Assembly: GCF_032118995.1 (NCBI RefSeq) | Contig: NC_092653.1 | Span: 23,517,202 to 23,581,201, forward strand | Direction: 5' to 3' | Length of the DNA: 64,000 nt | Origin: Asterias amurensis | Taxonomy: Eukaryota; Echinodermata; Asteroidea; Forcipulatida; Asteriidae | Shown: one piece after another, positions 302-59,959 of the stretch | How the letters are laid out: each line of letters starts with the position of its first letter | How positions within the stretch are numbered: position 1 is the first letter of the stretch | Notes under the pieces: model-generated | Database searches by the model: none | What the model saw: the letters and a program-made list of their open reading frames with translations, nothing else | Told to the model about the DNA's origin: nothing | Translations under genes and position numbers: made by a program

Positions 302-2406
302 CTGTGCAGCTGACACCATAATTATTGTTCCCACCAGGGAGATCACATTGAAACTTCTGTGACCAGAATTCATTGAAGAAAGGATTATAGTTGTCATCCT
401 GTGGGGTTCGACTTAGCAAGTAGTCTTCAAACGTCGGAATGAAGGATGACTTGAAATTCACAGTCAAAGCTCCTAATGATGGGATATTTAGACACAATAA
501 TATAATAAAGGGCAGTGACAATTCTAACCTGTTTTTATCTGGTCAATTAGATTCAGTTGGCAGGGACCAAAGTTATAACCACTTGAGGAACTTAAAACAA
601 CAGATAAAATAGTGGTTGAGGTTAGGGGGCACAAAAAATTCAAACATTGGAACATTAATTCTAAACGGAGTTTTCACAAAGAGAGATCCATTGCAAGTCG
701 CAACACTAGCTGGCTAGTTCCTGCTAATGTAGAACATGTATCATAAAAGTTATTAAAACAAATCTGTTACAAATTTGTCATTTTGAAAAACAGCTTTTTG
801 GGGGGTAGAAACACATCATAAAGTTTAACCGTTTTTCTTGTCTGTTTGAAAGCAATGTGGACATACCAACAGCTGGAGCTTCCAAGCCTGTAATGAAGTC
901 TGACCTGGTACCCCAGGTATCTGAGCCAATTATCTGGAAGTATCCAGGCTCCACATTTCGGTTCACCATTTCTTGAAGCAGAGCTTTGATTTGATTGTCA
1001 TACAAGAAAAGCACAAGAACCCTGGCATCCCACACAGCCATGAGGTTGGACACAAGCCTGATATAATCACTGTTTGAATCTACAGTGTATGACTTTGCTA
1101 CACACACACCAACCTGTTGGGTCATAAAGTAAAAAAAACAGTTTCCTTCATTGAAATTATACTATCAGTTGCTCTAATTTACTCTTTAGTTAAGCAAATT
1201 AATGAGTAAAAAAAAAATAATAATAATAATCTGATTTATTTTGATGTTTATGTGGTTGCAAGTTCTTTTCTATGAACATGTTCATGGTATTTTAGCCTTA
1301 ACAATGGTACCTCTTACTTTTAAAATATGTTGAACATTTTAAACCAAAAACGTGGGGAATTTAATGTTTTTATATCATCATGAATAATAACTGAGAGGAT
1401 GAATGAACGGAAAAGTTGTCTTTTAACTTTGATCAACACATTGTAATGCACAAAAACCCACTGTATTTGTCTACCAACCCAGATTTTCTTTTTAAGTACC
1501 TACATGTATGACCAACAGGCCTTAGGAAACTTGTAAAAACCATACATAAACAACACTTAATCAACATGTGATTGGCTTAAGTTTAAGTCAGGTCGAAGAA
1601 AGGTACAAGTAAGGTCCTACTCGAGTCTAAGTTTGGTTAAAAAGACACTAATTTAACCTTGGGAACAGTGCTGGTAATGAAACAGAATGCTTTTTTACTT
1701 TGTTTTAAACTACCAAGAAAAAGGATAAAAGTGTAATTTTCTTACTAATACTTACTTTCTTTGATGCATCTTTTATGGCCTTGGCACCACCTTCCCCATA
1801 TGCACCTATGGAATTAACAACTTGTACATTCATCAGTCCAAGTCTCGCCAAAACCTCTGTTATCAGTGTAGCTTGTTTAGTATCTGAAGGAACCATACGT
1901 AAGAAGTTTCCAAACTGTTCTTTATCACTCAATGCTGGACTTGTTGCTAAGTTGGAAACGATTGGCAAATCCACAATTTGGAGAGTTTTGCTAACTTCAA
2001 TAGCGGTGCCACTACTCCCTGTATGCAATACACCCATAAGGTAGGACTCATCATTGGTTGGAAACCCTCCATCAAAATCCCATCCCTTGAGCATTTGAAA
2101 AGCAACCCTTCCAGCATCCTCAGTAGTCAAGCAGATGGCAGTGAGAGGCACAGAGAGATGGAGTTGTGGAAGGAGATCAGGGTTTTGATTGATTGTTTCA
2201 ACAGCAAACCTAATCGCCTCAGTTTGAAGTAAAGTAAATTGTGGTAAGTGGATGCATCCTATTCCATATAGATCAAACAGAGCTTCAATGACAAACTCCG
2301 ATTTCTCGCGGCAGCTGCTAGAGTTATCAATGGAGTCATCTTGACTGACATAAGTAATCTCATTCTTGTTGATGGTTAATCCTCCATCATCACTCCACTG
2401 ACCAAC
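302..2406 (-). other. Third Venus-flytrap module (incomplete at window edge)
   Basis: Exons 1756-2406, 867-1113 and 302-472 repeat the layout of module 2: 651, 247 and 171 nt against 693, 247 and 174 nt, with the same phases. Motifs: FVIEALFDLYGIGC, AVETINQNPDLLPQ, NLATSPALSD, NFLRMVPSDTKQ, IGAYGEGG, IIGSDTWGTR and NPFFNEFWSQKFQC. Pocket Ser (GSSGTA), Thr, Asp, Tyr and hinge Asp are all present, but the Arg78 position is again Gln (LLQTEAI). The closing exon, equivalent to 2559-2860, is not in the window. By the spacing in module 2 it would start about 450 bp past the edge exon, so the module is truncated by the window, not broken. Confidence 0.85.
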
Positions 2407-5400
2407 CTGTAATATACAGAGTTGTACAAAGTTAATTCCAAAATGCAACTCCAGTAAACAAGTCTTAGCTAGTTATCAATGATCTAGAAAAGATTATTTT
2501 GAAATTCAAGCCCTGTGAGCAAAATAATGTTCCAATAAGACAGAATCAAATAATTTACCTCCTTAAACTTATATTCACTGGTCTCCTGAATGAGTTGGTA
2601 AACAGCAAACAATCCAGCCCCATCACCGTTCTCATCAAAGCTGACTAATTTTCGTGAGCCGACTGGACTTGTAAAATCAACATCGTGAAGATACTGAAGC
2701 CATTGCCCAGGTTCAACATCAGCAACTGCATCACAGATCGTCCCATCTGGGCAGGTTTTGTTGATGAGGTTAGAGAGAGCCATGGAGTACACAAACACAA
2801 CATTTATTATGTTCTCCATACCTAGACTACTCACATCATTGCTTGTCAAGATCTCGGAACCTAAATAAGGATGAGAAAGACGTTTCAACAGCAAAACCAA
2901 GAAGCACAAGTTATATTGACACTAAGGACAGTAATTGATTCTCTAAAACTGTTTTGTTTTACCCTAAAAGTGATGTGTGCTGAGCAGTGTATACTGAAAC
3001 CAAACTCAAACATGGTGTGTTCCCCAAGGATCTTTCATTGGTCAACATTTTGATCACTTACTACTCTCACTAATTGGTTAAACTATTCACTGTCACTCAC
3101 TTTAGTTCCATGTTGTGCTTTAAGTTTTTCTTTTCCAGTGTCTTTTATTCTTTTGTGATTTGAGAAAATAGTGCTTTCTGAGTCCTGCAGAAAAAACCCG
3201 TTCTAGACCAGATAGATGTCTTGAGTACAAACCCACCGAGTGCCGGGATTAGGGATGGGATTTGTCAGTATATAATTTGAGGATCATAGCTGCATTGAAT
3301 ACTTTACCTGTGCAGTTCTTGCCATACTGTGTGTTTCCACTGGGGAGGTCACATTGGAATTTCTGAGACCAGAACTCATTGAAGAAAGGATTGGAGCCGT
3401 CCTGATTCATAGGAGTCATAGTGAGAAAGAATTCTTCAAATGCAGGGATGGGTGATGATTTGAAAGTCACAGTCAATGCTCCTGTTGGATAAAGGAATAC
3501 AAAGTATTTAAAAAACTATAAATGAACTGTTTGGTTAAAAAAAAAAGTGAATTAATTTAACCTTTTAAATACCATTTGTTTCTGTTTTACTACCACCATG
3601 CACCCAGACATATGGCTAATATTGTTGAGTTTTTGACACACAAAAAAATCTTTTAAAAGTGTCTGAAAGAAGAATTTGCAGCAGAAATTTGGTTTTATAT
3701 TCAACTGCTATTTGTTTACTCTGACAGTATTTCAGATGAAAAATATTTCTCTGAAGAATGGTAAGAGCTTTTTTATCAGTAAGCTTTCACGTTGCCACTA
3801 CTCAATGCTCAACATAACTACCAACTGTACTTAACTTTGTCTTTAAGCATTTTTCACAGAGTTTCTGGACAAACTACAAAGAAGGATAGATTATTTACAC
3901 AACTGCTTGTCAGCTTTGGATGTAAATCAAGGAAACTTACAAGATAATGGACATGGAATACATTTAGATAAATGAAGGAGTAAGAACCAATGACTGCACT
4001 TACCAACAGCCACACTTTCCAATCCTGGAATGAAGTCTGCTCTGGTGCTCCAAGTATCTGATGCAATTATCTGAAAATATCCCGGCTCCACAGATCTGTC
4101 CACCATCTCTTGAAACAGACCTCTAGCATCACTGTCAGTCACAAACAGGACAAGAACCCTTGCATCTGGCTTTGCCATCAGATTGCTTAGCAGCATCCCG
4201 TAATTCGTGTTTGAATCCACAGTGGCAGAGTTGGTAATACACACACCATTCTATTTGGTAAAGATAACTTAATATGATGCTGCAACAAGCATAACTCTGT
4301 CGAAACTCAAAACTCATGGCTTTATTTGCTCATCAACAAATTGAGAAAAAGGCCTTCCAAACAACACTTTTAGAACTAGACCTGATAGTGCAAGTATTTC
4401 TCAACATAAAAAGAATATTTGTATCAATTTGAATCTTGAGGTTGTCTTCATTCTTATCACCATTTAGATATTTCCGAGAAGTGCCTGATTTTGGTTTGGG
4501 CCATTATGTATGGCTCATTTTACATCATGCGAACCAGACAAGACTAAAACAGCTTTGATGTTCTCAGTTCTTATCAATTCCTGCATACTGGAATATCTGC
4601 AAACTGAGCTGAAAGTATTAAACCACAAATCTTCCATCTATACCTGACCTTTTGAGCCTTGTGGCGACTTCCATTGAAAATAATACAATACACACAAAAA
4701 TAGGAGATCTTGACTTTGTTTTTAAATTTTGGTACTGTAAGCTTCTTTCGAAATCCCACAAGTTGAAAGCTTTTTACTTCAAACTGAACAGAAAAAAGTA
4801 ACCACATGTATACCTTATTAATTCACTCATATAAAAACGGACGTTAACTACGATTCCTAATTTTGGTACACTTACCTTCTTTGCTGCATCTCCAAAAGCC
4901 AGGGCACCACCTTCTCCATATGCACCTCTAGAGTTGATGACCTGCACATACTTTAATCCAAGACTTACTAAGATCTCCGACATGGCCAACGTTTGCTTAG
5001 TGTCTGATGGCACTGTACGCAGGAAGTTGGGAAACTCTTCACTATCACTTAATGCTGGAGATGTGGCACTGCTTGCAAGCAGCGGCACATCCACAATCTG
5101 GAGGGTCCTACTCTCTTCAATGGCCTTACCGTTACTACCAGAATGCAGCATACCCATGAGATAAGTTTCCCCATTTTGTCTTGCAAACCCTCCACCAAAG
5201 CTCCAATCTTTGATCTTTTGAAAAACAACCCTGCCAGCATCCTCTACACTCCCACAGATGTCACTCACAGTCATGGACAGATGGACTCCAGGAAGGATAT
5301 TCGAATCCTGGTTGATTTTGTTCAGTGCGAAGAGAGCAGCTTGGACCTGGGTAAATCGGTTCTCACGAAGGGTGTCGCAGCCACTACCATGGAGATCAAA

Positions 5401-8400
5401 AAGAGCTTCAATAACAAACTTTGGAAAGCCACCACGGCATCTTAAATCAGTGCATGCTCCCTCCTCACAAGTAGACATGGGTGGTTGGACAAGCAAACCA
5501 ATCTCTCCGTAGAATTCCATCTGAGATTTATTGAGAGTCAGCCCTGTTGTAGCATCCCACTCTCCAACCTATAGTCAAATAGAATCATTCATTACTCAGA
5601 CATGGTCAGACACAGTCACCAAGAACTTTGCATAATGATGTTCCTTGTTCTGCAGCACTAAAAATGAAAGCATAATAGCAATTAAGTTACACAGTGATGT
5701 AGCTAGAGCAATTCTAGTGGTGGGCTCCGAGTCCAATTTAGTCCACCAAGGGGAAGCGGTTCAACAAAATGATTCATGTTTAGATATGGGGTCATCATTG
5801 CGGTGGGAAATCTGTGCTGGGCAGCACAGTGTACTTTGCTCAGAGTGCTGGGCAAGGCACTCAGGATTGCCCGACACTGCCCACCATGGCTTCAACACTG
5901 ACAATGTATATGTCGGTTTCCCCATTAACAAATTTAACCACTACTAAAAATCGCAAAGCTAAACAGAAGATTTTGGTATTAAGACTTTTTTATTACAGGA
6001 AATCAACAGCATTAGTCTGAACGGTTGAATGGAATTAGTCACTGGAATCATACCACTTGAAGGGAATATCCATCGGCAATGACAGTGCTCTTATACTGGA
6101 GAATCTCATAAAAGCTTTGCAGTGGGTCACCATTTTCATCAAATGCTACACGGCCACCGCTCACTCCTGTAAAGTTTACCCTTTTCACATACTGAACAAA
6201 TTCAGAACCTGTGCAGGAAAAAGTAACATAGTGAAGAAAAAAAATGCACTGGCTGAAATGTGTGTCAAGACTAGACCTGAATATGCTGAAAGAGAACGCG
6301 TCTTCTGAATGCCAACATCACCACCACCAAGAGCACTCTCAGGTCAGTTTGATGTAGTGGTGTCTTGCCTCGCCTTCCACATCTGGGACCCCAGTTCAAA
6401 TCCCCCTTGGGGCACTATATGGATTGGGTTTCAGTCCATACTTGACCGAGTAGGCTTTCCCTGGAATAATTCTCTGGGGTTTTCCTACATCTACAACTGA
6501 AAATACTTCATTGTCTTCTCTTTCCTCATTTGGCTCAAGAGCCAAAGTAAAACTAAACTCAGCAGTTTTGTATTAACCACATGTAAAACAGCACTGTTTC
6601 AAAGATACATATATGTAAATACCTTGAATGGAAGCAAGCACATCACACGATGCTGACAGACCCCCACACTTTTCTAGGTGAGCCAAAGAGAAAGCTTGTA
6701 AGTAAGCATGGATGCTATCAACCAACAGCACAGAGGGCAAAAAGGTAAAGTCTATGCTCGGGTGGAACTTGGCAAGCCAAGCTTTGAAAGCTTCACTCTT
6801 GACAAATGGAGACACTGCGATGATGCCCCGAGCAACTGCTTTCTCCCCATCAGACAAGTCGTTGAATGAAACATAGTGTATGGTATCAGTGGTTACCAAC
6901 TGAATGTCGTGGGCTGCACCCCCAATGCGATCGATGGCTTTGAATAACCTTATAACATTGAATGACGAAGTCCACAAAATAAAAACTGTGGGGAAAGAAT
7001 AACAGATTCAAAAAACAATAGTAAATAAATAAATAGTAAATCTCACTTTAAGAAAGAAATACATCTCACTTGATTGTTAATTTTTAAAACAAGTAAGAAC
7101 AGACAAAGATTTCTTTACCCTCTTTTTTACTACTAGCTGCGAGTTAAGTGGATCCACAAGTGAAACCCTTACCTCAGATCTAGGAGAAGGCCTAATAATA
7201 ATAATAATACAAGACATTTATGTTTGGGCATAATACCGGAGCCTCTAATCTATGCGCAATACATGTGTTCAAAAATGGCTTAAAACAGGAGCAGGCATTT
7301 TTAAGGCTCACTCTGAGCCAATTTTAATTTCAGTGATAACATAAAACGATGACATAAAACATATTTATAAGCAATAGTTACAAAAACACAATAGAATTTA
7401 GTGGACAAAGTAGTCTGTGTCAGTAGGGATTGGCCAGTAGAACAATGGGGATGAAGAATATATTTCTGTTGAAGATCAGATACAGACCTGTATAATACCT
7501 GTATAATACCTACTACTAGAACAATGAGCTATCATCTCCATGAACTATGAGGTTCTTTCCACTATCATCTCTTCAAATCGGAGAGGGTAGCAGAACGAAC
7601 ATCATAGTTCTAGGAATATTAATACCCACCCTTAATATTCTGTTGGACACACTGGTTAACTATATCATCATACACCTCATCACTCGTCTCCCTTCTGTTA
7701 ATGACAATAGACTCAGAAAGACAAAACCCTCCATCAGGCTGTAATGCTGCAGTCAACAATGCCCTCTCACCGCTCAGTCCAAACTCATTTCCATTGTGGA
7801 TCATTTTAGCGTAGGTCCAACCAAAGCTCTTCATGACGGCTGTAAGAACCTGGGGGCAATAGATGGATTGCAAATAGTGTCATGGACCGCAATATTTGAT
7901 GATAACAATGGACAAAGGCATAATCGTACAAGCTACACACAACTCTCAGCCAATGATAGCCTTTCACACATGACAGTTTCATCCATTCAAAGATGGTAGT
8001 CAATGTCGGATTTACGTCCTGTATTATGGACCCTACCGAGTATCCAAGTGTAGAAGTGCAACCCAGATCTATAGGCCTAGACAAATTATTCTACTATCAA
8101 ACTGATAACTGCAAATACAGGTAGGCATGGCTGGGCCTGGGTCTTTGATTCTCAAACAAAGCAAAATAAGATCACAAAAAAAAACACCATAAATTTAAAG
8201 TTTAAAATAAATATATAACTTAACTAAAGGAAAAGTTTCCGTATGGCGCCACCACTTTTTCATTCGAAATAAAATAATATAGTATCTAATTTACCTGATT
8301 GATATATCCCTTTTTGTAAAAATGAGTGAAAAAGTGGTGGCGCCATACGGAAAGTTATCCTAACTAAAGCCTAAGTAAGTGGCGGCATGGTGTTGTATTG

Positions 8401-10875
8401 AACAATTTTGAACAACTGCAAATAGTAGTAATATTTCTTGAATTTTGTTAGGCCTAGCATGGAGGTACGGGCCTATTGATAAATTAATAAAAACAGGAAA
8501 CAGAAATTGCTTCCTACGGGGATGCTAGCCCAAAATAAATGGGGACAGTCCTCTTTGTATCATTGGCTAAAAATACGCAGTGAATTGGTCCTTTCTTTCT
8601 GGGACTAGTCCGTCGGACCATGGTCGGACACATTCGCCCCCTGTCCCCCTTGCCTGACAATGGGGGCGCAAGCTCAACTGATGACGGCACGCTGAGGCAA
8701 AACTAGTATTAGTAGGCCTACCGATATTCCATCCTAAACTAAATAGAGGCCCCTGTAGATAATTTAGACTCACCATTTTCTTTCCCCACATCCTGCATTG
8801 TATTGCAGGATTTCTTCTAGCAAGGAAATAGGGGGGAGAGAGAAAGCAAAGGCATGCTTGCCAGGCCGCGACACATGATCATGACAGGTTCTACACGTGA
8901 ACAACACACACAAGGGAAAGCACCGCGTGAAAGTAGCCAGAGGCACTGAATAATTGCCCATATTAAATCACGTTGCGACGTCTAGTGTTCTGACTTTGAC
9001 TAAAGTTTTAAGGGACCTATGGAGCGCCGAAAGTTACAAAAAGTTCAACGAACCTGCACAGTGGTGTGATCGGGCGGGACAGTCCTGAAGAAGTTTGGGT
9101 ACTTGGTGGTGTCACTGAGTCCATCGGCAGTGCTTGTAAAATCAATAACTGGTATGTCCAACGGCTGCAGAACCATTGACAATGGTCCAGTTAATGAGCT
9201 AGATTCGAAACCAACAACTCCTACAAAATAAAGAAAACATGCGTCGACTTTACGGGACTTCTCCGATCTTCTCTATCCTTTATTATTGCACTTGTGTCTT
9301 CGCACAAGCAACACCTGACGACGACACCGACATCCTCTGCCCGCTATAACCTCACCCCATGGGCTGGTTCCCAAGAACCAATTGGCTTGTCGGTGCCCCC
9401 CCCCCCCCCCTAACGGTAAACTGTTTACAAATAGGGACAGAATCTCCGGTGAACAGATTTCCCCTTGGCGGGCGTGGCAGGATATATCTGTGTGTCTTCC
9501 CCCCCCCCCCCCATAACATCGACTAACTGTGTACAAACTTCTTCTGATAGCGCCCTCTTTTGAATCAATCGTCTCCTTCCCATGTTAATTTCCGGAGGGA
9601 CAGACTCCGATGAACAGATTTCCCTGGGACAATGGCATGTCTAAATGGCTATAGCAGTGAGTCTCACAATGCCCGTCTGGTATGCATTTTTTGTGAGTGA
9701 TTTATTGCAAACATATAGTTGACATTGAACAACATAGGCCTGTAAGCGAATAATGCTGTTCCCGGGTTTTCCTAGACGGCAATAAATAGCCACGTTGTGC
9801 AGACAATATCCAGACCCAGATCATTCAATAAAACACGGCTGAACGTACTCCATAACTAAACTCCGTTGAGGATGGGATTAAGGTTCAAGGTTCATTTATT
9901 TTCTACAGTATAAAAAAATATATAAAAAAAAAACGCTCCAGAGCGATCAGCTTAAAGAATAAAACTTTACGTAAATAAACGATGAACAAATAAATGAAAA
10001 CAAATACGACACTGCAGAGGGGTCCAAAGCTTGTAGGCGATGGTCCATGACGATGTTAGCGTCTGCATTGAGACAATTTGCATAATTATTTGAATGTTGC
10101 ATAAAAAGAGTCGTTTACTTCAAAACTTACCAAGTCGGAGAGTGCTGTTCGTGCACTCTACAGATGTATTCGAGTACAAGCTTCGGTATCTCCCGTTTAA
10201 GTAGCGACTTGCGCCGAACCGACCCACGTTCAGAGATAAACACGTGTCGTATATCTCAAGACCTACAGTACAGAAATCCAGAGTACCGATAAGTAAAGTA
10301 ATAGTGGATTGATTTCTATCAGGGTATGAGAAAGAATAAAGTTTTATTAGTTTTGTGCAAACTAGAGTTTGTTAGATTTTGTAAGCTTATACAGTTTCAA
10401 AGGGCTACCTTTAAATTCGACGCAGTTCCTACAATGTTCCAGTCATGAAACTTTGGAAGGGAAAGCATGGTTGTCTTTTAAAGGAGTTGGCGACACCAAT
10501 TTTTTGAAATCATATCAGCAGTGAGCCTTTTTGCATTCGGATTCATGCACCCCTGCACTCACCAAAACTAATCCCAGATGCAACAGTGATCGAGTTTGGC
10601 CAGTTGTTGATAGCCGTCTCAGCTACAAGCTTCGCCTGCTCCCCGGCAGGGTTTGCTGGCTTATTGAAGTCACATTCATCAGCATTGATATCACCAGCAT
10701 CGTGTAACTCTAGCATAAGGGCTATGATAAGGTCGGCGTCCGGATTGGTGACAACGGGCTCGTATCCTTGTTCGATCGGGCACCAATCTTCTTGGGAGTG
10801 GGTTGGTACTGGCATCGTCATCATCATGGCGACGATGGATAACACCAGCCTCTTAGATGCTCTTGCTAACGTCAT
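302..10875 (-). CDS. mGluR-like protein with three tandem Venus-flytrap domains (partial, C-terminus off left edge)
   Basis: Twelve exons in continuous phase: 10563-10875, 9054-9220, 7630-7849, 6623-6985, 6054-6208, 4876-5568, 4004-4250, 3308-3481, 2559-2860, 1756-2406, 867-1113, 302-472 (3703 nt, 1234 residues). The ATG at 10875 is chosen because it begins a hydrophobic signal peptide (LVLSIVAMMM, then THSQ). Each module carries metabotropic glutamate receptor signatures: LSD..FP.F.RTVPSD, the YGEGG loop, SDTWGTR, NPFFNEFWSQKFQCDLP, and FDENGD near the end. Exons 4876-5568 and 1756-2406 each begin with the end of one module (VGEW or VGQW) and run straight into the next, so the modules sit in one protein. 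No cysteine-rich NCD3G domain separates them. Whether a seven-helix GPCR domain follows lies outside the window. The family assignment is secure; the ligand is unknown. It could also be a secreted or single-pass receptor. Confidence 0.9.
2559..5568 (-). other. Second Venus-flytrap module
   Basis: Encoded by exons 4876-5568, 4004-4250, 3308-3481 and 2559-2860. Motifs in order: FVIEALFDLHGSGC, ALNKINQDSNILPG, SSATSPALSD, NFLRTVPSDTKQ, GAYGEGG, IIASDTWSTR, NPFFNEFWSQKFQC, VVFVYSMALSNL and FDENGDGAG. The Thr of SSAT, the Asp of VPSD, the Tyr of AYGEGG and the hinge Asp are kept. The mGluR1 Arg78 position appears to be Gln (FTQVQAALF), the Lys409 position Ala (CDAVADVE), and the pocket Ser165 position Asn (GSNGKA). 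The alignment was done by eye. Confidence 0.85.
6331..6500 (+). repeat. tRNA-derived SINE-like element in a receptor intron
   Basis: A box-B-like stretch, CCCAGTTCAAATCCCC (about 6412), is followed by a conserved-looking body containing GGATTGGGTTTCAGTCC and TCTCTGGGGTTTTCCTAC. The order, a tRNA-like head then an unrelated tail, is that of a SINE. It sits between receptor exons 6054-6208 and 6623-6985. I do not assign a superfamily. Confidence 0.55.
8229..8360 (+). mobile_element. 132-bp hAT-like MITE, copy 1
   Basis: Terminal inverted repeats of about 34 bp (start GGAAAAGTTTCCGTATGGCG, end ACGGAAAGTTATCC) flank an AT-rich core. Both flanks carry the 8-bp duplication TAACTAAA (8221-8228 and 8361-8368). 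Eight-base target duplications are typical of the hAT superfamily. No transposase is encoded, so this is a non-autonomous element. It sits in a receptor intron and matches the copy at 41602 over its whole length as far as I can read. Confidence 0.85.
9396..9512. repeat. Two poly-C runs (15 and 14 bases)
   Basis: C runs occupy 9396-9410 and 9499-9512 inside the first introns of the flytrap receptor gene. Runs of this length recur through the window. Confidence 0.9.
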
Positions 10876-57378: not shown

Positions 57379-59532
57379 TCACGATTCATTTTCAGCACAC
57401 GTTTTGTTCGTATTGACATACTTCATGACAGCATTAGCAGCATCAAGTCTCCGTGCCTGGATCATGACAGATGCTAACCACTGCAAACCTTTGCACTGAT
57501 GTTCCACCTCCTCCAGCAGAGTCTCCGTGGGCTTGTAAGCCGGAGTGTCCTTCAAGAGTGGTATCAAGGAGTCTAACTCCAAGGCACTTGCGAGGATGCG
57601 CCAGTCATTTCCCAGAGTAGCCAATGGGTCTAGGAGCAGCACCAACTCCATGCAGAGCTCGTGAGAGATAGTCCGTGGAGAGCCAGCCTGACTCAAGAAG
57701 TCAGTCGGAGAAGGGGATTCATCTCCGTTTATGATTATCTTCATATTTTGCGTGCACGGTTGTTGCGTGGGTTGGTCAGTGGTTTTAGACAATTCGTCAT
57801 CTGACGATGAGTTTGATGTGTTGTCTGATGAGGTATCTGATGATGAAGGCACTGATGAGTTCGAGGATGAGCTAACATCTGAAGACAATGAGCTGATGCT
57901 TCCTGACCTGCTGCTGACGCTGGAGGTGCTGTCGTAGCGTCTTCTCTTTCCTGATCCTCTACGCTTGCTCGAGGGAAACACATTGATGACGGCCTTGTTG
58001 GAGTTTCCAATGTTCTCAAAGTTGCGCTTGGATGATGAGTTAGATTTCATGGAGGCAAGGACTTTTAAACACGTCTTATCAGATTCAATTGTTTCCCTGC
58101 CTTGCTGGTGAAGTACCAGTCTGACATCTATGTCCCGCACGTGCTCGTTCTCGTGTTTGAAGATAAAAGACACATGGGGGCACTTGCCATGCCAAAGGTT
58201 GAGGAATGGTACACGTTCTTGCCGGTCGTCCAACCGATGTGACCACCCTTCGTTGACGTGTTGCACGGTGGCCAACATGTCCTGATCATCCCCATGGAAC
58301 AAGAACTCCTTCCGGGGGCACAACATCTTGAAGTGGTTCTTCGCCTCATTTTGTACGGCAAATTGCAGTGCGCACGGGGTGTTGTTCAGTAAATACACGC
58401 GGATTTCGTAGTGTTGTTTGGCGCGCATCTTCCCACCGAACACAGCCAACTGCATCCACTTTTTTATCCCTTTATTTGGTGATGTTTTCCCTTCAGCTAT
58501 GCAGGTATAAAGAGTAAAATGTGACACCTGAACCTGCACTTCATTCGGGAAAAGTGTGTACGGTTTAATACTGTCCTCCTTAGAGCAAACCTCCTTCCAG
58601 TCCTTGTTTTGCATGAGGTGGGTCTGACTTGCCACAATAGAAACGTCGTTGATGTTGTAAGCACAGTGTCTGTAGCTCAGCATGGCAGGCTTGTTCAGCT
58701 TGAGTCCGTGAGGCCCACAGTGCACGACGGGGCTGATGATTGTCTGATCGTCACTCATGCCTGGAAAGTCTCCCAAGTCCCAGTCCAGGATGAGTGAGAT
58801 GCGCTCGGTGCGTCCAACATCGATGGCGTGAGGTGGGATCGTCAGAGAGATACCCATCTCATTCAGTACTAACGTGTCACCGAGATGGTTCACTTCGCGG
58901 GATATGAAAACAACAAGTTTACTCCCCACCATGATGGTTTCACTCTGGGACATTCCAGCTCTCACCAACTCCTGTAGCTGATGGTCCGCCTGGAAGGATG
59001 GCCCCATCCCTCCATCAGTCAGAGCGGGTATTGGCGATGGCGTCTCATCACTACGTACTCCAAAATGGCCGTCGTATGTGTATGTATACTGGCCACCCCC
59101 AGTAAGTGAGCTTGCATCCAGGGCTCTTACCTGCGGGTTCCCATCTCCTAGCTCCCAAAATTGCGGGGGTGATCCTGACACGCCGGACGGCAGTGGGTCA
59201 TGCAGGAATCCCCCATTAAAACCTCGGTTACTATAAGTAGTGGTAATCCACGGCACGTCTCGACCTCTACGGGGGTTGTAATATCCTCGAGAGGTAATGT
59301 CCTCGGCTTCGTCGACCTTCATGTGATCAATCGAAACCGCCTGAAATTCTTCGCACGTTATTTTAAACGTTCTACCGCAACACTTTGAACAAATACACTT
59401 AGTAATACACACGATGATGACAAGGAAAAGTACAGTTGCTAAAACAGCTATTACAATCATATATTCCATATCACCCCAATGATCATTCTCTGTGTTTGAT
59501 GTTGGTGATACTCCACCCATTGGTCGACCCAT
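57379..59532 (-). CDS. UNC5CL: UNC5C-like death-domain protein (membrane anchor, ZU5, UPA, death domain), intronless
   Basis: One open frame of 717 residues from ATG at 59532 to the stop at 57379. Residues 24-45 are a membrane anchor (YMIVIAVLATVLFLVIIVCI) followed by the Cys cluster KCICSKCCGR, likely lipidated. A ZU5 domain lies at about 215-345 (ISLTIPPHAIDVG, ISPVVHCGPHGL, VQVQVSHFTLYTC). A UPA-like region spans about 355-495, a Ser-rich linker about 497-590 with a basic patch KRRGSGKRRR, and a death domain about 622-710 (NDWRILASALELDSLIPLL). No immunoglobulin or thrombospondin modules precede the anchor, which separates it from netrin receptors UNC5A-D and fits UNC5CL. In mammals UNC5CL (518 residues) activates NF-kB and JNK through its death domain. 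The extra length comes from the N-terminal spacer and the Ser-rich linker. Confidence 0.88.
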   Translation of the reverse strand: MGRPMGGVSPTSNTENDHWGDMEYMIVIAVLATVLFLVIIVCITKCICSKCCGRTFKITCEEFQAVSIDHMKVDEAEDITSRGYYNPRRGRDVPWITTTYSNRGFNGGFLHDPLPSGVSGSPPQFWELGDGNPQVRALDASSLTGGGQYTYTYDGHFGVRSDETPSPIPALTDGGMGPSFQADHQLQELVRAGMSQSETIMVGSKLVVFISREVNHLGDTLVLNEMGISLTIPPHAIDVGRTERISLILDWDLGDFPGMSDDQTIISPVVHCGPHGLKLNKPAMLSYRHCAYNINDVSIVASQTHLMQNKDWKEVCSKEDSIKPYTLFPNEVQVQVSHFTLYTCIAEGKTSPNKGIKKWMQLAVFGGKMRAKQHYEIRVYLLNNTPCALQFAVQNEAKNHFKMLCPRKEFLFHGDDQDMLATVQHVNEGWSHRLDDRQERVPFLNLWHGKCPHVSFIFKHENEHVRDIDVRLVLHQQGRETIESDKTCLKVLASMKSNSSSKRNFENIGNSNKAVINVFPSSKRRGSGKRRRYDSTSSVSSRSGSISSLSSDVSSSSNSSVPSSSDTSSDNTSNSSSDDELSKTTDQPTQQPCTQNMKIIINGDESPSPTDFLSQAGSPRTISHELCMELVLLLDPLATLGNDWRILASALELDSLIPLLKDTPAYKPTETLLEEVEHQCKGLQWLASVMIQARRLDAANAVMKYVNTNKTCAENES

Positions 59533-59959
59533 TATGACGGCTGAACAATAATCTCCTCAGCACCAAACTCGCCTTAAAATACACCCGTTTCCTCGCACAC
59601 TACGGGGTGGCGAGGTACCCGTCAAGACAAAATGCCAACACAAACTTGTGAGGTGTTACTTTAACAAGTAGGTGCACTGTGTTCGTTCCCTCCTGACAAA
59701 TCCTTCCATGGAAGTTGCGAGACAAGTTGATAATGGTGAACATCAAGTTCATGCATACAGTTCAAAGCCGTTCAACTCGAACCGATCACTCACCGCAAAT
59801 AAAAAACGAGGGACGTACATACACACGTGTAATCCAGACGGGAGCAAGAATAGGGCCTACGTGCAGTCACCACCGAGCACAAACAACTATGGATAGAGGT
59901 CATGCATGTTCAGATTAGCCACCGAATCAGATCAACCACCAGTTGGCACAATACGCCCA

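Follow-up and report, generated by a model that had tools for sequence, protein, structure and literature searches.

The stretch analysed here (the window, 64,000 nucleotides of the Asterias amurensis contig NC_092653.1, hereafter C6, spanning C6:23517202-23581201 so that window base 1 is C6:23517202) carries on its minus strand, between positions 302 and 10875, thirteen exons of a predicted receptor gene whose eight remaining exons lie to the left of the window (C6:23509722-23516773). Joined through 20 GT-AG introns, the 21 coding exons yield one open frame of 2636 residues; the exons were placed by homology and splice sites using 60 kb to the left of the window, and the splicing is predicted. 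The textbook metabotropic glutamate receptor (mGluR)-type class C G protein-coupled receptor (GPCR) has one Venus flytrap per chain, acts as a dimer, and is coupled by a cysteine-rich domain. According to the model, the present gene is intact and present in a single copy, and it encodes a class C GPCR that has five Venus flytraps in tandem but no cysteine-rich domain. The original prediction, which saw the window only, had proposed at least three tandem mGluR-type flytraps on 12 exons in phase; the tandem arrangement in one predicted chain and the phase agreement hold, but the gene model has 13 exons in the window and five flytraps by Pfam, two more lying left of the window, and module 3 itself becomes complete only with exon 14 (Table 1), also outside the window.

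When the protein is cut at its linkers into five pieces, each piece matches ANF_receptor in Pfam (E of 2.6e-42, 9.8e-53, 1.6e-46, 9.3e-48, and 9.1e-40 for modules 1 to 5) along positions 5-350 or more of the 353-position profile, and the uncut protein gives the same domain in five stretches with E 9.7e-231. The seven-helix domain 7tm_3 (PF00003) is covered from profile position 6 to 251 of 251, with E 9.7e-31 when the module 5 piece is scanned and 6e-30 for the uncut protein, whose remaining Pfam rows are Peripla_BP_6 and five matches below the cut-off. Genome-wide searches, which cover the 491.5 Mb assembly (G000) in 23 contigs, place the 7tm_3 match at C6:23509836-23510576 (E 1.3e-29); beyond the left edge of the window they also give ANF_receptor matches, at C6:23515603-23516100 and C6:23511275-23512156. 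The protein thus has the combination that defines class C (family 3) GPCRs, that is, 7tm_3 with extracellular ANF_receptor N-terminal to the seven helices. No hydropathy segment reaching 1.6 on the Kyte-Doolittle (KD) scale precedes residue 2347; some of the seven helices are fused or overlooked in the KD scan, and the assignment of the helices rests on the full-length Pfam coverage. The putative signal peptide in exon 1 was judged by eye, and the scan at KD 1.6 does not flag it.

The cysteine-rich domain NCD3G, a mark of the mGluR/CaSR/T1R group, is absent from this receptor at E<=1 both in the five pieces and in the whole protein, which agrees with the earlier proposal that no such domain separates the modules. 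Extension to the left, suggested at the time as a way to see whether NCD3G and seven helices follow, brought the helices and no NCD3G. The same Pfam library showed NCD3G in 9/9 other class C receptor open reading frames (ORFs) scanned from this genome, five above the Pfam cut-off and four slightly below it (E<=3e-8); these control ORFs have 7tm_3 in 9/9 and ANF_receptor in 8/9 cases, the flytrap of the locus L001 sitting on another ORF. The five introns that end the modules hold no frame of at least 30 residues with at least five cysteines, and such frames are present in some introns inside modules. Between module 5 and the seven-helix domain lies a short stalk containing two cysteines.

The amino-acid pocket of mGluR1 has been described in terms of Ser165, which holds the carboxylate, Thr188, Asp208, Tyr236, and Asp318, which hold the amine, and Lys409, which contacts glutamate (PMC2680970). 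In an alignment with mGluR1 numbering, the first five of these residues are all kept in modules 3 and 4, four are kept in modules 1 (Phe at Tyr236) and 2 (Asn at Ser165), and three in module 5, which is without Ser165 and Asp208; Ser165 is kept in 9/9 other aligned receptors of the genome. Lys409 occurs in none of the five modules, and is present in mGluR5, mGluR8, and the genome's mGluR-like receptor L001, so that no module has the complete set of motif residues plus Lys409 found in glutamate-binding mGluRs. Replacement of Lys409 in the Venus kinase receptors has been read as “probably not glutamate” (PMC2680970), and the present receptor probably senses amino-acid-like ligands other than glutamate. 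The pockets argue that modules 3 and 4, and possibly modules 1 and 2, bind amino-acid-like ligands, module 5 being altered.

The same erosion of the motif, with the full set of five residues in modules 3 and 4 only, would also suit a chain that is mostly structural, in which one or two flytraps bind and the rest serve as stalk, spacer, or dimerization scaffold, raising the sensing module off the membrane or holding partner chains together. Class C receptors offer a precedent in the flytrap of GABA-B2, which has no known ligand of its own. Among the five modules, a cysteine in the loop column at which we take the inter-flytrap disulphide of mGluRs to sit is found in module 1 only (C141), a further point in favour of a structural role for some modules, and this cysteine also occurs in mGluR5, mGluR8, and 6/9 other receptors of the genome. 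Since such a disulphide between flytraps has been described in mGluRs (PMC10543438) and module 1 is the sole module with the cysteine, module 1 may be the one linking two chains. Against a mostly structural chain, the low ratio of nonsynonymous to synonymous substitution (dN/dS) across the exon cassettes of modules 2-4, given below, and the intact motif of the two youngest copies suggest that ligand binding has been kept in them; we regard this alternative as possible, though doubtful.

That the modules belong to one predicted chain is seen at their joints. In each of four linker exons (7, 11, 15, and 19), the last part of one module is fused to the beginning of another, as had already been proposed for exons 7 and 11, whose coordinates proved exact; these two are open frames with phase 0 at both ends, begin with VGEW and VGQW, respectively, in the last flytrap strands, and continue into lobe 1 of the following flytrap. 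Phases match at all 20 predicted junctions. Searched against the genome, exon 7 returns 30 rows, among which only exons 7 and 11 of the same gene start at query position 1, the other 28, exon 15 included, starting at position 44 or later; the linker nature of exon 15 was seen by direct alignment. The seven-helix domain has five other matches in the genome, at most 29% identical, and no close copy.

It could still be supposed that the single gene of the model is in truth a row of distinct receptor genes, or that isoforms of one or two modules arise from internal promoters, given that the splicing is predicted from genomic DNA, that the cassettes are symmetrical with phase 0 at both ends so that module skipping would preserve the frame, that AATAAA occurs in 9/20 introns, and that the linker exons contain an in-frame Met at codons 17, 105, 13, and 21. 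However, read upstream from exon 21 or from any of the four linker exons, the frame ends before a Met is reached, by eye no internal Met precedes a signal-like segment, there is a single seven-helix exon, and the introns at the module 2/3 (exons 10/11) and 3/4 (exons 14/15) joints measure 152 and 185 bp. Moreover, any module would be without its last strands unless it was spliced to the linker exon carrying the next module, and we consider a group of separate genes or short isoforms very unlikely.

Modules 2-4 are encoded by four-exon cassettes with identical intron phases 0, 1, 1, 0. Modules 2 and 3 share 62% amino-acid identity, modules 2 and 4 share 60%, and modules 3 and 4 share 77%; by two methods, synonymous divergence (dS) is 1.03-1.17, 1.10-1.30, and 0.325-0.353 for the same pairs, and dN/dS is 0.25-0.28, 0.23-0.27, and 0.41-0.47. 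The third codon position differs most often (196/425, 201/432, and 104/224 differences in the three pairs), and blastn at E 1e-3 finds no similarity between the cassette introns. Given the third-position excess, the dN/dS of 0.23-0.47, and the introns without detectable similarity, the flytrap copies are not due to chance. A tree of 16 rows (the five modules, nine other receptors of the genome at L001-L007, L018, and L019, and two mGluR fragments; L008, with a stop in frame, and the partial L015, L017, and L020 were omitted) joins modules 2-4 in a clade with support 100/99. Based on tree, phases, and codon comparison, a four-exon cassette with phase-0 boundaries was duplicated at least twice to give modules 2, 3, and 4. 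Furthermore, a phase-0 intron lies immediately before the motif VG.[WY] in 5/5 modules, and the motif lies inside an open frame in all 11 other receptor ORFs in which it appeared at the flytrap end in a scan of ORFs longer than 250 residues (L001-L007, L015, and L018-L020, with L008, L016, and L017 outside it); this intron position favours internal duplication of all five modules, without being proof for modules 1 and 5. Assembly errors are known to arise at tandem repeats, but a false tandem duplication, or a decaying pseudogene with relaxed copies, appears largely refuted already and is hardly credible for cassettes that have diverged by dS 0.325 to 1.3 with introns without detectable similarity, and for 2636 codons without an internal stop at dN/dS well below 1.

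Modules 1 to 5 contain eleven, eight, eight, 10, and nine cysteines, respectively, and a short linker containing one to three cysteines comes after each of them. The eight of modules 2 and 3 correspond to three canonical flytrap pairs, which we take to follow the pairing of mGluR1, together with the lobe-2 cysteine of a GVC motif in helix F and one linker cysteine. This GVC cysteine is aligned in 5/5 modules with Cys234 of mGluR2, to which helix F leads from a ligand-touching tyrosine and which forms a disulphide with Cys518 of the cysteine-rich domain (PMC12394075). The linkers look like stumps of a cysteine-rich domain, and the receptor probably descends from the mGluR/CaSR side of class C, having lost that domain and gained tandem flytraps. 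Since the single linker cysteine leaves one candidate partner, the GVC cysteine of modules 2 and 3 would pair with it and tie the lower lobe to the next unit. Modules 3 and 4, and perhaps 1 and 2, would close on amino-acid-like ligands other than glutamate; by virtue of such a tie, a flytrap that closes would exert a pull on the module after it, and the pull would at last reach the seven-helix domain by way of module 5 and its stalk with two cysteines. That domain presumably couples to G proteins, and the receptor as a whole would sum or gate multiple ligand-binding events within one chain.

Several points weigh against this scenario. The clade of all five modules has support of 70/83 only, with modules 1 and 5 on long branches. 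Homology guided the choice of splice sites, so that the agreement of phases cannot count as independent evidence, the donor of exon 3 (GTTCGT) is weak, and the architecture is known here from the DNA of one genome. Two motif residues are missing from module 5, and Ser165 is replaced by Asn in module 2, so that an amino acid may not be a ligand of either module. The disulphide pairs are deduced from cysteine counts rather than from a structure, modules 1, 4, and 5 being less clear, and an AlphaFold model of linker exons 7 and 11 was uninformative, at a mean predicted local distance difference test score (pLDDT) of 31. Taking both sides together, we consider it fairly probable that this is a one-gene class C GPCR with five flytraps and without a cysteine-rich domain, formed by cassette duplication and working by a multi-input mechanism. 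A bolder version, to which we attach little probability, is that flytraps of the same chain pair by their lobe-1 faces, so that the chain would carry its own dimers and act as a coincidence detector for at least two different ligands; if true, there would be no need for the chain-to-chain flytrap dimer on which the studied mGluRs and CaSR depend.

Table 1. Coding exons of the predicted five-flytrap receptor gene, in window positions or, for exons left of the window, in C6 coordinates (M, module).
Exon	Position	Strand	Content
1	10563..10875	-	start codon, signal-peptide-like segment, start of M1, residues 1-104; donor GTGAGT
2	10131..10262	-	M1; phases 1/1; Pfam ANF_receptor
3	9054..9220	-	M1; S165/T188/D208 equivalents kept; donor GTTCGT
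4	7630..7849	-	M1; F at Y236 position
5	6623..6985	-	M1; holds D318 equivalent
6	6054..6208	-	M1; ends at phase-0 intron preceding VGEW
7	4876..5568	-	linker exon, 231 codons uninterrupted: last strands of M1 and lobe 1 of M2; PF01094 match
8	4004..4250	-	M2, cassette exon b, phases 0/1
9	3308..3481	-	M2, cassette exon c, phases 1/1
10	2559..2860	-	M2, cassette exon d, phases 1/0
11	1756..2406	-	linker exon, 217 codons: end of M2 and lobe 1 of M3; 152 bp intron from exon 10
12	867..1113	-	M3, cassette exon b
13	302..472	-	M3, cassette exon c; last exon within window
14	C6:23516469-23516773	-	completes M3; left of window
15	C6:23515636-23516283	-	linker exon M3/M4; left of window
16	C6:23515074-23515320	-	left of window
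17	C6:23514323-23514493	-	left of window
18	C6:23513642-23513943	-	left of window
19	C6:23512459-23512944	-	linker exon M4/M5; left of window
20	C6:23511245-23512147	-	left of window
21	C6:23509722-23510735	-	seven-helix exon with stop; left of window

Around the gene, the window also contains on its minus strand (57379-59556) an ORF of 725 codons with ZU5 (7.6e-19), UPA (1.2e-12), and a sub-threshold Death domain (3.1e-4), which we take to be the intracellular part of an UNC5/netrin-receptor-like gene. About 18-23 kb to the left of the window (C6:23494000-23499000) lies a tandem-repeat tract, visible as long overlapping ORFs that consist of a repeated motif; TYHQRPTAQEQTADRH, for example, appears in several of the frames.

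Elsewhere in the genome, the ANF_receptor arrays on contig C5 were considered as further multi-flytrap receptors and rejected as another kind of locus, because guanylate cyclase domains are interspersed among them and each flytrap copy read (four in L021 and one in L016) has its own Met and signal-like segment. One of these arrays (C5:3566402-3624842; L021, L022, and L023) has fourteen listed lobe-1 flytrap exon copies of receptor-guanylate-cyclase type, 7/14 rows flagging a stop inside the match, which precede one downstream exon set comprising by eye a flytrap C-half, a membrane segment, and a kinase-like part, with one guanylate cyclase domain; three of the four copies in L021 share the donor GTAAGTG with a stop just beyond. 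This arrangement looks like a protocadherin-style cluster of variable first exons swapping half a ligand pocket, of which no report was found among the best 8 of 9 literature matches. At C5:21.81-22.17 Mb, ten guanylate cyclase domains on the minus strand alternate by position with flytrap first exons, one to five per domain, which makes this a large expansion of receptor guanylate cyclases, perhaps with more alternative first exons. On contig C14 (145-158 kb; L017:5506-6537 and L018:3111-4121, 6273-7637), two N-half flytrap exons, each beginning with a signal-like segment and having, by eye, a phase-1 donor, precede a shared exon that encodes the C-half of the flytrap, NCD3G, and the first part of 7tm_3, the remainder of which is at C14:157764-158186; the pair may provide a single mGluR-like gene with alternative exons for ligand binding.

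Five flytraps per chain without a cysteine-rich domain put two rules to the test, namely whether flytraps of the same chain are able to dimerize and in what way closure is relayed when no cysteine-rich domain is present. A single receptor of this kind may weigh several chemical signals at once, and offers a natural design for multi-input sensors. The original prediction knew of no described receptor with this layout, and in the open PMC literature (subscription journals and preprints lying outside it) no class C GPCR with tandem flytraps appears among the matches listed, the wording “two VFT domains” in CaSR and taste receptor papers, where VFT stands for Venus flytrap, being taken to mean two dimer chains. 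The extracellular domains of metazoan glutamate-family receptors have been given as ANF, NCD3G, EGF, and Cache, with no ANF repeat mentioned in the sections on these domains (PMC12716839), and two mGluRs with an ANF domain and NCD3G are reported from the crown-of-thorns starfish (PMC6267866).

Among solved structures, the nearest chains in the Protein Data Bank (PDB), searched with modules 1, 3, and 5 and the seven-helix domain, are mGluR5 for module 3, mGluR4 for module 1, and mGluR8 for module 5 (best 60 of 91-98 matches), and mGluR3 followed by mGluR2 for the seven-helix domain (54 matches), so that all four queries have their affinity with the mGluR/CaSR/T1R group. The flytrap cysteine pattern and amino-acid motif of mGluR1-8 are largely kept, but those receptors have one flytrap, NCD3G, and Lys409, whereas the present one has five flytraps and neither of the other two. 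Receptor guanylate cyclases are likewise animal receptors built on a flytrap/ANF-type domain, one per chain, with a cyclase output in place of 7tm_3. Venus kinase receptors use the same type of domain (PMC2680970), again with one flytrap per chain, but with a kinase output. GABA-B receptors also join a flytrap to seven helices without a cysteine-rich domain (PMC12716839), with one flytrap as against five here. GABA-B chains are absent from the 54 matches that the seven-helix domain has in the PDB, and from the best 60 of 91-98 matches of modules 3, 1, and 5.

The nearest analogue by design would be the BvgS family of sensor kinases with its up to five tandem flytraps, although these are bacterial histidine kinases with another output domain and with flytraps of another family, so that the likeness is one of design and not of kinship. 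One to five tandem flytraps per chain have been described in this family, with a proposed role in integrating multiple chemical signals (PMC4352136). Given this similar layout in bacteria, tandem flytraps may be a recurring solution for the integration of chemical cues.

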